DNA from: Sphingomonas sp. SCN 67-18
Lineage (GTDB): Bacteria; Pseudomonadota; Alphaproteobacteria; Sphingomonadales; Sphingomonadaceae
DNA length: 64,000 bases
Assembly: GCF_001724715.1 (NCBI RefSeq)
Contig: NZ_MEFG01000024.1
Span: 1 to 64,000, forward strand
Direction: 5' to 3'
The position numbers and the translations under genes were made by a program. Positions 53,806-57,878 of the stretch are shown piece by piece (position 1 is the stretch's first letter; each line of letters starts with the position of its first letter). The notes beneath the pieces were generated by a model that made no database searches, had not been told where the DNA came from, and saw only the letters and a program-made list of their open reading frames with translations.

Positions 53806-54039
53806 TCAGATATCCACGCCGGCGGCGATCGCTTCCAGCTTGCGGATGCGTTCCTTCAGGTCCGCCATCTCGATCATCGATCCGGCCGAAGGCGGCGTGC
53901 TGTCCGCGCGCTGGTGCTGGATCTCGACATGCTTCAGGTCCAGCCAGCCGCGCCAGCCGCGCAGCGCAGCGAAGGACAGCATGGCGATGGCGGCCAGCGA
54001 AGCCCCGGCGACGGTGATGTAGAACATAGGGTCGGTCAT
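53806..54039 (-). CDS. Small membrane protein of the Psp operon, PspB-like (last gene)
   Basis: 77 residues. One N-terminal membrane segment (about 5-27) is followed by a basic turn (RGWRGWLDLKHVEIQ) and a short coil ending MADLKERIRKLEAIAAG. The plan of one helix plus an LxxRIxxLE coil is that of PspB. It follows the preceding gene after 26 bases and lacks the shared LR-end of its neighbours, so it may be the most derived copy. Confidence 0.65.
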   Translation of the reverse strand: MTDPMFYITVAGASLAAIAMLSFAALRGWRGWLDLKHVEIQHQRADSTPPSAGSMIEMADLKERIRKLEAIAAGVDI

Positions 54040-54065
54040 GATGCGTCCCCTTCCTTCCTGGGCGG

Positions 54066-54317
54066 TTACGCCTTGTCGCGCGTCCGCAGTTTCTCGATTT
54101 CGCGGTCCAGGCTGCTCGTATCCTCGGTGGCGAGCCGTTCGAGGACGGCAATCCGCTCCTTCAGCGTGCGCAATTCCTCGCGCATCCGGGCCGTATCGGG
54201 ATCGTGCAGCGGCAGGTCGTTGCCCTTGTTGTCGCGCCGGATGCCGTATTTCGCGCGCAGGATGCTGGCGACCGCGGTGATCGCGACGATCAGCACCACC
54301 ATTTCAAACGGGTTCAT
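54066..54317 (-). CDS. PspB-like coiled-coil membrane protein (3rd extra gene)
   Basis: 83 residues. A membrane segment at about 5-20 leads to RAKYGIRRDNKG and then a coil: LRTLKERIAVLERLATEDTS and SLDREIEKLRTRDKA. The coil is very like those in the proteins at 54344 and 54758. It should sit in the inner membrane with the coil in the cytoplasm. Part of the leftward Psp operon. Confidence 0.72.
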   Translation of the reverse strand: MNPFEMVVLIVAITAVASILRAKYGIRRDNKGNDLPLHDPDTARMREELRTLKERIAVLERLATEDTSSLDREIEKLRTRDKA

Positions 54318-54343
54318 CTATTGTCTCCCGAAATGCTTTTCGT

Positions 54344-54670
54344 TCAGTTCACCGGCCGCCGCAGCGACTCGATTTCCTTGTTCAGGCTATGCGCCTCGTC
54401 GGTGACGATACGCTCCACGGTGGCGAGACGATCCTTGATCGACCCCAGTTCCGCCCGCAGTTGCGCATTTTCCTGGGTGAGCAGCTTGACGCGCTCCATC
54501 GTCTCGTCGCTGTTCTTGGGATAGATGGCCTGGCCCCAGGCGCCGTCCAGCGGATAGCCGTTCTTGACGCGCAGCCAGGTGGTGAACATCCAGCCCGCGA
54601 CCCCCATGACGATGCCGACGACGGCGATCAGGGGAAAATATTCGCTCAGATTGGCAAGAGCTTCGGACAT
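54344..54670 (-). CDS. PspB-like coiled-coil membrane protein (2nd extra gene)
   Basis: 108 residues. A membrane segment (about 12-32) with the motif WMFTTWLRVKNGYPLDGAWG, then the coil ENAQLRAELGSIKDRLATVERIVTDE in pieces, ending LNKEIESLRRPVN. The WxFTxWxRxxxGYPxxGxWG part is shared with the protein at 54758, so the two are close paralogues. A hairpin CCGCCGC-TTT-GCGGCGG (54704-54720) lies in the gap upstream. Confidence 0.72.
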   Translation of the reverse strand: MSEALANLSEYFPLIAVVGIVMGVAGWMFTTWLRVKNGYPLDGAWGQAIYPKNSDETMERVKLLTQENAQLRAELGSIKDRLATVERIVTDEAHSLNKEIESLRRPVN

Positions 54671-54757
54671 TGTTGAACTTCCTCAAACAGGTGGTGCTGA
54701 TGCCCGCCGCTTTGCGGCGGCCGTGGCGGCTTTCGACGAACGGCGGATCGCGTTCGA

Positions 54758-55045
54758 TCAGCGCAGCGCGTCTATGTCGCGGGCGGTGCGTTCGGCCGGG
54801 TCGGTCGCGATGCGTTCCAGCACCGAAATCCGCTCCTCCAGCCGCAGCAGCTGGCCGCGCAGCTTTTCATTCTCGCCGGCGAGGAACGCGAGCTTGCGGT
54901 CCTCGTCCGGGTCGGAGCGGCTGACGCTGCCGCCCCATTCTCCCTCCACGGGATAGCCGTGGCGCGCCCGGATCCAGCTGGTGAACACCCAGCCGATGGT
55001 GCTGATCGCGATGAGGCTGATGACGAATATCTGGCCGCTGCCCAT
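54758..55045 (-). CDS. PspB-like coiled-coil membrane protein (1st extra gene)
   Basis: 95 residues. A membrane segment (about 5-22) with WVFTSWIRARHGYPVEGEWG, then a coil with ENEKLRGQLLRLEERISVLE, ERIATDPAERT and the ending ARDIDALR. The LxxRIxxLERIxxD core is the PspB coil pattern. It follows pspC after 29 bases. Confidence 0.73.
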   Translation of the reverse strand: MGSGQIFVISLIAISTIGWVFTSWIRARHGYPVEGEWGGSVSRSDPDEDRKLAFLAGENEKLRGQLLRLEERISVLERIATDPAERTARDIDALR

Positions 55046-55074
55046 GGTCTGTCTCCCCTGTTCGCCGGCCGCGC

Positions 55075-55455
55075 TCAGCGCAGGCTGTCGATTTCGTCGG
55101 CCAGCCGGCTGTTGCGGCTGGTGTAATAGGTCTCGACGTCGGCCAGGCGGCGGTCGATGTCGCGGAACTTGGAGCGGACGTCGCTGGTGGTGCGGGCCGG
55201 CGATTGCCGCACGCCCTGCCAGAACTTCGCTTCCTCGGCGTTTTCATAGAGGCCGCTCGGCTTGGGCGTGGCCATCCAGGCGGCGATCCAATATGCGATC
55301 AGCGTCCAGGGAAAGCCGCCCATCAAAGTGAAGACGACGGTTCCGACGCGGACCCACACCACATCGATGCCGGTGTAATCCGCGATGCCGGAGCAGACCC
55401 CCAGCCATTTGGCGTTCTGCTTGTCGAGGTAGAATTTGGTGCGACGGTCGGACAT
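55075..55455 (-). CDS. pspC: Phage shock protein C
   Basis: 126 residues. The PspC domain has KFYLDKQNAKWLGVCSGIADYTGIDVVWVR in outline and two membrane stretches (about 37-65). The C-terminal tail is a coil ending RLADEIDSLR, the same ending as in the small proteins downstream. PspC and PspB bind PspA at the membrane and control PspF release. Confidence 0.9.
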   Translation of the reverse strand: MSDRRTKFYLDKQNAKWLGVCSGIADYTGIDVVWVRVGTVVFTLMGGFPWTLIAYWIAAWMATPKPSGLYENAEEAKFWQGVRQSPARTTSDVRSKFRDIDRRLADVETYYTSRNSRLADEIDSLR

Positions 55456-55505
55456 TGTGATGCTCCCCTATTTGAGAAGAAATTGGTCGGTCGGGCCCGG
55501 CGCGG

Positions 55506-55733
55506 TCAGCCGCCGGATTTCCAGTTGGGATTGTCTGCGGCGATGATCCGCTCGATCGAATTCAGGCGATCGTCCAGCCGGCGGGCGGTCTCGTACAGTT
55601 CGCCCAGCAGGTTCTCGTCCTCGCGGGTGATGCCGCCCGCGCGCTTCCACTGCGTGACATAGTGGAGGATCAGCCAGGGCATCCCGATGAACAGGAAGCC
55701 GCAGACGAAGATGGGAACGAGGATGTCTTCCAT
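55506..55733 (-). CDS. pspB: Phage shock protein B
   Basis: 75 residues, the standard PspB length. The membrane segment MEDILVPIFVCGFLFIGMPW is followed by LHYVTQWKR and the coil LGELYETARRLDDRLNSIER with a terminal DNPNWKSGG, matching E. coli PspB (AEHPNWR). Four bases separate it from pspA. Confidence 0.92.
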   Translation of the reverse strand: MEDILVPIFVCGFLFIGMPWLILHYVTQWKRAGGITREDENLLGELYETARRLDDRLNSIERIIAADNPNWKSGG

Positions 55734-55737
55734 CGGA

Positions 55738-56409
55738 TCAGCCTTCCTTGCCGGTCGAGCGGGCCTTCATGGCGGCCAGTTCGGCTTCCACCTTCTCGCT
55801 CGATTTCAGCTCGGCGATCTCCTCTTCCAGCGTCTTGGGCGCGGCGCCGAAGCCGGCGGCATCGGCCCGGCCCTCGGCCAGGTCGGCGCGGCGCTCCAGC
55901 AGCTCGAACCGGCTGAACGCCTCGTCGATCTTCGGGCCGGCGTAGATCTCCCGCATCTTCGCGCGGTTGTGCGCCGATTCCAGCCGGGTGACGATGGAGT
56001 TCTGGCGGCTGCGCGCCTCGCGCAGCTTGCCCTGCAGCTTGGCGATGTCCGCTTCCGACGCGCGCAGCGATTCATCGAGCACGGCGATCTCGCTTTCCAG
56101 CTGCTCGGCCATGTCGCGGGCCTTCTGCTTCTCGACCAGCGCGGCCTTGGCCAGGTCCTCGCGGTCCTTGGACAGCGCCAGCTCGGCCTTTTCGGTCCAG
56201 CTTTCCTGCAGCTTGTCCAGCTTGGCGATGTGGCGGCGCATTTCCTTCTGGTCCGCGATGGTGCGGGCGGCGGAGGCGCGCACCTCGACCAGCGTCTCCT
56301 CCATTTCGAGGATGATCATGCGGATCATCTTCGCGGGGTCTTCCGCCTTGTCCAGCAGGTCGGTGACGTTGGCGGCGATGATGTCGCGGGTGCGAGAGAA
56401 AATACCCAT
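55738..56409 (-). CDS. pspA: Phage shock protein A
   Basis: 223 residues, nearly all coiled coil. The N-terminal amphipathic helix MGIFSRTRDIIAANVTDLLD and the segment EDPAKMIRMIILEMEETLVEVR are hallmarks. It binds damaged membranes as an ESCRT-III-like oligomer and inhibits PspF when idle. It lies 88 bases after the small secreted protein gene. Confidence 0.96.
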   Translation of the reverse strand: MGIFSRTRDIIAANVTDLLDKAEDPAKMIRMIILEMEETLVEVRASAARTIADQKEMRRHIAKLDKLQESWTEKAELALSKDREDLAKAALVEKQKARDMAEQLESEIAVLDESLRASEADIAKLQGKLREARSRQNSIVTRLESAHNRAKMREIYAGPKIDEAFSRFELLERRADLAEGRADAAGFGAAPKTLEEEIAELKSSEKVEAELAAMKARSTGKEG

Positions 56410-56497
56410 TTTCGGCTACTCCTGAAGGAAGGCTGGTGCGATGTGGAAAGGGGGGCCGGGGCAGACAAGGGGGCGCTGCCCCGGCCGGGTTATGCCA

Positions 56498-56677
56498 TCA
56501 CGCCAGCGGCGCGACGGCGAGGGAAAGGGCGGGGCTGGCGAGCTGCGCCGGCACCGGGCTGGCGTCCACCGCCTCGGCGGGGCCGACCGCGCTCAGCAGC
56601 AGCGTGCCGCTGAACAGGACGGTGCAGAGCGCGGCGGAAGCGGCTTTCTTCAATTCGAAACGGCTGTCGGTGAACAT
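56498..56677 (-). CDS. Small secreted or membrane-inserted protein, first gene of the Psp operon
   Basis: 59 residues (MFTDSRFELKKAASAALCTV at the start). A charged n-region, a hydrophobic core (about 12-32) and an AEA-type cleavage site (GPAEAVDAS) give a signal peptide, leaving a mature peptide of only about 25 residues rich in Ala, Pro and Leu. GGGAG precedes the ATG. It is the first gene after the sigma54 promoter at 56736. I recognise no family. Confidence 0.6.
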   Translation of the reverse strand: MFTDSRFELKKAASAALCTVLFSGTLLLSAVGPAEAVDASPVPAQLASPALSLAVAPLA

Positions 56678-56735: not shown

Positions 56736-56751
56736 TGCAGGGAGCGTGCCA
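56736..56751 (-). promoter_or_regulatory. Sigma54 (RpoN) promoter of the Psp operon
   Basis: TGGCACGCTCCCTGCA on the minus strand fits TGGCAC-N5-TTGCW except for one base. GG and GC are correctly spaced for -24/-12. The expected start lies about 12 bases downstream. An inverted repeat GAGACG-GGTT-CGTCTC (56704-56719) would lie at the very beginning of the transcript. The PspF gene is divergent and 100 bases away. Confidence 0.8.
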
Positions 56752-56852
56752 ATTTTGCGGACTCCCGCATTTCCGCCGATTTTATCGCGTTAAGCGGCAT
56801 GGATGGCCGAAATATCTTGCCAAGAGTTGGGATTTTACACCATATTGCGGCA

Positions 56853-57878
56853 ATGGAGCGCGACAATCATTTTATCGGGCAGTCCTTCGCCTTTCTCGAT
56901 TCCGTCGAGCGCGCCAGCCGTGCCGCCGGGCTGAACCGCCCGGTGCTGGTGATCGGCGAGCGCGGCACCGGCAAGGAACTGGTGGCGGAACGGCTGCACC
57001 GGCTCAGCCCGCGCTGGGACGGCCCCCTGGTGGTGATGAACTGCGCTGCGCTGCCCGAGACGCTGATCGAGGCCGAACTGTTCGGCCATGAGGCGGGCGC
57101 CTTCACCGGCGCGACGCGCGCGCGCGCCGGGCGGTTCGAGGAGGCGGACGGGGGCACGCTGTTCCTGGACGAGCTGGGCACGCTCTCTGCAGCCGCGCAG
57201 GAAAGGCTGCTCCGCGCGGTGGAATATGGCGAGGTGACGCGCATCGGCTCCAGCCGCCCGCTTCGCGTGGACGTCCGCATCGTCGCCGCCACCAACGAGA
57301 ATCTGCCCGCGCTGGTGGCGCAGGACCGCTTCCGCGCCGACCTGCTCGACCGGCTGTCGTTCGAGGTCGTCACCCTGCCGCCGCTCCGCGCGCGGGAAGG
57401 CGACGTGCCGGTGCTGGCCGATCATTTCGGGCGGCGCATGGCGGCGGAGCTGGACTGGCCGCTCTGGCCCGGCTTCACCGAGGACGCAGCGGCGGCGCTG
57501 ATGGCCTATGAATGGCCGGGCAATGTCCGCGAGCTGCGCAATGTGGTGGAACGGGCAGTCTATCGCTGGGGCGACCCGGAACGCCCGGTCGACGCAATCG
57601 AGTTCGATCCCTTCGCATCGCCGTGGAAGCCGGTGGGGGAGGCCGCCCGCGCGCCGATGTCCGGCACGGCCGGGGCCGCACCGGCCCCTGCCGCTCCGGC
57701 CGCCGCGGCGGACGAACCCTGCACCGATCTGCGCGCCGCCTGCGACGCCTATGAACGGCGCTTGCTGGAGGCGGCGCTCAACCGCTGCCGCTTCAACCAG
57801 CGCCAGACCGCCAAGGCGCTGGCGCTGACATATGACCAGTTGCGCCACGCCATGCGGCGGCACGCGCTGCAACCGTAA
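56853..57878 (+). CDS. pspF: PspF, sigma54-dependent activator of the Psp operon
   Basis: 341 residues. The AAA+ domain has VIGERGTGKELVAERLH (Walker A), GAFTGATRARAGRFEEADGG with the GAFTGA loop, and GGTLFLDELGTL (Walker B). There is no N-terminal regulatory domain, as in PspF, which is restrained by PspA. The C-terminal helix-turn-helix is FNQRQTAKALALTYDQLRHAM, after an Ala/Pro linker. I chose MERDNHFIGQS at 56853; an upstream ATG at 56799 would add 18 residues. Confidence 0.93.
   Translation: MERDNHFIGQSFAFLDSVERASRAAGLNRPVLVIGERGTGKELVAERLHRLSPRWDGPLVVMNCAALPETLIEAELFGHEAGAFTGATRARAGRFEEADGGTLFLDELGTLSAAAQERLLRAVEYGEVTRIGSSRPLRVDVRIVAATNENLPALVAQDRFRADLLDRLSFEVVTLPPLRAREGDVPVLADHFGRRMAAELDWPLWPGFTEDAAAALMAYEWPGNVRELRNVVERAVYRWGDPERPVDAIEFDPFASPWKPVGEAARAPMSGTAGAAPAPAAPAAAADEPCTDLRAACDAYERRLLEAALNRCRFNQRQTAKALALTYDQLRHAMRRHALQP

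Follow-up and report, generated by a model that had tools for sequence, protein, structure and literature searches.

A family of predicted single-span membrane proteins with a coil common to PspB and the PspC tail in the psp operon of Sphingomonadaceae

Introduction

PspA is a bacterial ESCRT-III protein, and its recruitment to and retention at a damaged membrane is the question on which the proteins described here bear.

In E. coli, residues 69-119 of PspC, which include a leucine zipper, are required for interaction with PspA and for induction (PMC3068692). In the on state, PspA is bound by the C-terminal cytoplasmic domain of PspC, and PspF is freed (PMC5596341). Some operons encode a PspC that has a divergent PspB fused at its C-terminal end (PMC11237479), and Ravi et al. 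(2024) mentioned "PspB duplicates" within psp operons, for example AOL22920.1 (PMC11237479).

Here we analyse a psp operon from Sphingomonas in which four small genes, termed X1-X4, follow pspC. An original prediction made from the sequence had described an operon enlarged by four PspB-like proteins. The enlargement is real; it is not wholly new, since PspB duplicates in the operon had already been mentioned, and these are possibly the same phenomenon as the X genes.

Results

The psp genes and X1-X4 lie on one strand behind a single sigma54-type site. Along the minus strand of the window (the whole 64 kb stretch of DNA that was analysed), the order is the sigma54-type site, a 59-aa ORF, pspA, pspB, pspC, X1-X4 and a sufE-like gene, with pspF divergent:

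56853-57878, plus strand: pspF, divergent sigma54 activator, start at 56799 or 56853 (TIGR02974, 483 bits, cut-off 443.6)
56736-56751, minus strand: sigma54-type promoter of the psp operon, TGGCACGctccCTGCA / TGGCACGCTCCCTGCA (motif match)
56498-56677, minus strand: 59-aa ORF with one hydrophobic segment
55738-56409, minus strand: pspA (TIGR02977, 271.7 bits, above cut-off)
55506-55733, minus strand: pspB (PF06667, 91 bits; TIGR02976, 76 bits)
55075-55455, minus strand: pspC (TIGR02978, 125.9 bits), with the shared coil in its C-terminal tail (55078-55122, by module search)
54758-55045, minus strand: X1, 95 aa, subfamily A; helix, WIRARHGYPVEGEWGG linker, coil module at 54761-54862
54344-54670, minus strand: X2, 108 aa, subfamily B; helix 3-37, linker with TTWLRVKNGYPLDGAWGQAIYPK, coil helix 55-104, module at 54359-54460
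54066-54317, minus strand: X3, 83 aa, subfamily C; helix FEMVVLIVAI, coil module at 54084-54185
53806-54039, minus strand: X4, 77 aa, subfamily Z; one helix, shortened coil LKERIRKLEAIAAGVDI / DLKERIRKLEAIAAGVDI

PspA, PspB, PspC and PspF passed the Pfam and NCBIfam cut-offs. The sigma54-type site was the sole match across the window (0.14 expected), most relatives also have such a site upstream of pspA, and the genome encodes rpoN. Within the operon, its own strand showed no promoter-like or terminator-like sites. The gaps are 29 bases between pspC and X1, 87 between X1 and X2, 26 between X2 and X3, 26 between X3 and X4, and 55 between X4 and the sufE-like gene. The coordinates confirm the predicted arrangement on a single strand with gaps of 26-87 bases, and the single sigma54 promoter proposed for the psp set and X1-X4 stands, as the only match in the window and with none internal on the operon strand. 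Gene order, gaps and the promoter site together indicate that X1-X4 are probably part of the PspF/sigma54-controlled operon.

Several other features were observed, in this operon and elsewhere. The 59-aa ORF, which is the first gene past the promoter and was absent from the original prediction, had no family match in Pfam or NCBIfam; ORFs of 45-59 aa with a similar layout precede pspA in many relatives of the family, and outgroups from the same order have a different type of small ORF there. The gap between X1 and X2 (54671-54757), the longest between X genes, contains an inverted repeat that is GC-rich and lacks a T run. Two psp operons (L043 in genome G020 and L048 in G003) encode a second PspC of 62-64 aa between pspB and the full pspC; it has no C-terminal tail, and this PspC domain lacking a coil is the converse of the X proteins. 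The genome of the window itself has a second PspC-domain match at another locus (G000 C26:66708-66893; L199, L101) at 49-53 bits, with a stop inside the wider match.

X1-X3 share one architecture, and X4 departs from it. X1-X3 belong to one family with a membrane helix and a 35-residue coil, LxxRIxxLERI(A/V)TD-x(n)-LxxEIxxLR. More generally, subfamilies A-E have one membrane helix and a C-terminal LxxR(I/V)xxLERI(A/V)TD-x(n)-LxxEIxxLR, in which the spacing after TD varies. The PspB arrangement of one N-terminal membrane helix followed by a coil was found in X1-X3 from sequence and, for X2, in an AlphaFold2 model (membrane helix 3-37, a loose linker and a single long helix 55-104; mean pLDDT 81). 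The corresponding model of PspC was poor (pLDDT 57), and a sequence search found no solved structures of PspC or of the X family. Basic residues past the helix suggest that the X1-X3 coil is on the cytoplasmic side. The coil of X4 is a shortened variant that only weakly resembles the X1-X3 module (1 of 150 null trials scored as high), and profile comparison detected no similarity between X4 and PspB. Thus, of the four genes predicted to encode PspB-like proteins with an LxxRIxxLERI coil, X1-X3 fit and X4 does not; the PspB-like count is three, not four, because X4 has no similarity to PspB.

The X ORFs are real genes, because they recur across genera and have dN/dS values like those of pspB and pspC. 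The values were about 0.3-0.45 (0.32-0.45) for the X genes and 0.30-0.31 for pspB and pspC, indicating that purifying selection on the X genes is near that on the two psp genes. Conservation together with dN/dS rules out chance ORFs.

The coil of X1-X3 is related to both PspB and the PspC tail, below curated thresholds. None of X1-X4 passed a Pfam or NCBIfam cut-off. X3 scored 15.3 bits against TIGR02976 (PspB; cut-off 51.7), X1, X2 and X4 had no match to PF06667 or TIGR02976, and X2 matched positions 70-121 of TIGR02978 (PspC; E 2.5e-4). There was no match to the PspC domain PF04024 in any of the four. When the 34-aa module was searched against the whole genome, X1, X2 and X3 were followed by the tail of PspC itself (E 0.0067) and then by noise at 0.62.

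We compared profiles of 64 ungapped modules with those of PspC tails (from other families, Gammaproteobacteria and E. coli) and PspB coils, using a null in which module columns were shuffled within heptad register (200 trials per comparison). The module aligned with PspC tails over 35 of 35 columns, ungapped to the last residue (probability 94.2), with a score of 31.6 against a null maximum of 27.5, and with PspB coils over 26 of 35 columns (probability 93.3), with a score of 28.9 against a null maximum of 25.2; in both comparisons 0 of 200 trials scored as high. Control scores were 19.8 for FtsB and 1.2 for PspA. Short coils are prone to false kinship; on the strength of the heptad-preserving null, pure coil periodicity was rejected as the source of this likeness. 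The PspB coil and the PspC tail also resemble each other (91.1), in agreement with the published remark on PspC-PspB fusions. Ten relatives were also scanned against 18,950 NCBIfam models; the two families matched in the majority of them were PspC and PspB.

X1-X3 are therefore related to the PspB and PspC families below threshold, by a relation that exceeds the heptad null. The term PspB-like is apt for their layout and their sub-threshold relation to PspB. It gives half of the picture, because the coil end matches the whole PspC tail and PspB over only 26 of 35 columns; the xPxW ending of PspB is absent from the X coils, which end in TD-x(n)-LxxEIxxLR.

The insert is a nearly constant feature of Sphingomonadaceae. 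Of 40 relatives surveyed, those in the same family almost all had one to eight small genes separating pspC from the sufE-like gene, and in the other families of the order pspB and pspC were present and the insert was absent. An X-protein profile found matches in 287 of 298 Sphingomonadaceae genomes, representing 82 of 89 genera, at 1-9 per genome, and few matches in the same class outside the family. A contig scan seeded by the subfamily B alignment yielded 80 named loci (Sphingopyxis, Sphingomonas, Sphingobium, Sphingosinicella and others), of which the commonest order was pspB-pspC-A-B-D-C-Z-sufE; the window has A-B-C-Z, with D missing. Gaps between X genes were short (median 16). The borders of subfamilies A, C and D are approximate, because the paralogue tree, built on few columns, recovered E alone as one clade and B nearly so. 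Throughout the family, the insert lies between pspC and sufE and its order is mostly fixed.

Relatives of the X proteins occur away from the psp operon in other Proteobacteria that have PspB, among them marine Gammaproteobacteria, where they are single genes. A search with a PspC profile turned up two small, unlinked proteins from Gammaproteobacteria, and a profile including them matched in 62 of 397 genomes of the phylum. Counted outside Sphingomonadaceae, all 33 genomes in which a strong match lies outside the psp operon encode PspB, two of the 33 having seeded the profile, compared with a background of 71 of 373. The co-occurrence has p about 1e-27 by genome and 1e-15 by genus, values that ignore kinship among genomes that are not phylogenetically independent. 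The exceptions to occurrence with PspB are a weak match in G706 (E 5e-4) and G442, a genome within the family that has no PspB match.

The 36 unlinked proteins (67-86 aa, from Gamma- and Alphaproteobacteria) resemble both PspB and PspC tails. Their profile aligned with PspB over nearly the full length (96.4, E 1.2e-9) and with PspC tails to the end (95.6), compared with 58.3 for the FtsB control. For six of six unlinked relatives, the best of the 18,950 NCBIfam models was PspB or PspC, always below cut-off, and no member tested reached the curated threshold of either family. The genes occur, among others, in Vibrio campbellii, Pseudoalteromonas sp. and Photobacterium sp., where they are annotated as hypothetical protein or unannotated. 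A sigma54 score of at least 25 was found upstream of 7 of the 36, several of them from one genus and at varying distances, compared with 1 of 94 other genes.

Two further arrangements were seen. In a family from another order of the class, two X-like matches lie close together about 80 kb from the psp operon (L098 in G192, L099 in G399). In another class of the phylum, a tandem pspB duplication (G848 C1:1117368-1117807) consists of two adjacent stretches above the PspB cut-off.

Discussion

X1-X3 appear to be an unnamed family of single-span inner-membrane proteins with a helix and a coil common to PspB and the PspC tail. We lean, with modest confidence, towards the view that the X proteins, co-induced and anchored in the membrane, are copies of the coil of PspB/PspC and would provide extra docking sites for PspA and for PspB/PspC. 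Membrane stress would lead PspF to induce the X genes along with PspA. The X proteins, with the N terminus out and the C terminus in, would then expose tails of the PspC type at the cytoplasmic face and lack the PspC sensor domain; these tails would bind PspA and pair with the PspB and PspC coils. The added sites would hold PspA at the membrane and tune how easily it leaves or inhibits PspF again, the distinct linker beside each helix would give each paralogue its own place, and X4 would be a more distant helper. We infer the sign of the X effect, the topology and the binding.

The original prediction proposed that the X proteins are interchangeable adaptors, each able to replace PspB in the PspBC sensor and to couple PspA to a different membrane stress. 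Their PspB-like layout, the sub-threshold similarity to PspB across helix and coil, and the several distinct membrane helices and linkers are in keeping with this. However, the canonical PspB is kept alongside them, the coil end is PspC-type and not PspB-type, and the paralogues are distinct subfamilies that recur in mostly fixed order in dozens of species and look non-redundant. We do not favor interchangeability and consider it improbable, since the paralogues differ from one another and keep a largely constant order, which points to distinct roles. It is also unlikely, if somewhat easier to imagine, that the X proteins exert negative feedback: once induced, they would pair either with the tail of PspC or with the coil of PspB, so that PspC could no longer hold PspA and the response would shut down again. 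The X coil resembles both partners, and a silencing interaction between PspB and PspC in the cytoplasm is, by its title, the subject of one cited paper. The evidence for such feedback is the same as that for docking and either sign fits it, but up to nine matches per genome is more than a simple off-switch would need.

We consider it very unlikely that the X proteins are unrelated small coiled-coil membrane proteins merely co-transcribed with psp, whose likeness to PspB and PspC reflects convergent coil periodicity. The coils are short, their scores are below curated cut-offs, and the FtsB control was not negligible against the unlinked relatives (58.3). Nevertheless, none of the 200 heptad-preserving trials reproduced the likeness, PspB or PspC headed the NCBIfam models for every unlinked relative compared, and co-occurrence with PspB was complete in the 33 genomes whose relatives lie outside the operon.

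Extra docking sites in the Sphingomonadaceae operon could be part of a wider picture. Tentatively, and at somewhat under even confidence, we suggest that single-span proteins with a PspB/PspC coil are an overlooked further class of phage-shock component. Many Gammaproteobacteria and some Alphaproteobacteria with PspB would encode one as a lone, unlinked gene; in Sphingomonadaceae such genes would have been drawn into the psp operon and multiplied there, forming a fixed multi-subunit assembly for docking PspA. If so, an unannotated family would be added to a well-studied stress system of Proteobacteria. The literature searched, which covered few subscription papers, yielded no description of the X family, its PspC-type coil end, the fixed Sphingomonadaceae operon or the PspB-tracking unlinked relatives. 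The "PspB duplicates" of Ravi et al., extra PspB-type genes in a psp operon, are mentioned in one clause without family definition, copy number, order or unlinked relatives (PMC11237479).

The E. coli psp operon has no X-type gene; PspD and PspG of enterobacteria are, according to the literature, small PspF-regulon proteins. PspB (PF06667, TIGR02976), encoded in the same operon, likewise has one N-terminal membrane helix and a coil (RLxxRLxxIERI). It differs in that X1-X3 fall far below its cut-offs, in that it ends in xPxW and they in the TD-x(n)-LxxEIxxLR pattern, and in that the linkers of subfamilies A and B bear HGYPxExxWG-type motifs. The C-terminal tail of PspC (TIGR02978 positions about 70-121; residues 85-119 in E. 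coli) has the same 35-residue coil, identically spaced to the last residue, and belongs to the part of the protein linked to PspA binding in E. coli (PMC3068692). Unlike PspC, the X proteins have no PF04024 domain and have one membrane helix of their own; if the docking reading is right, membrane proteins with only the type of coil that contacts PspA, and without the sensor part of PspC, would make it possible to separate docking from sensing.
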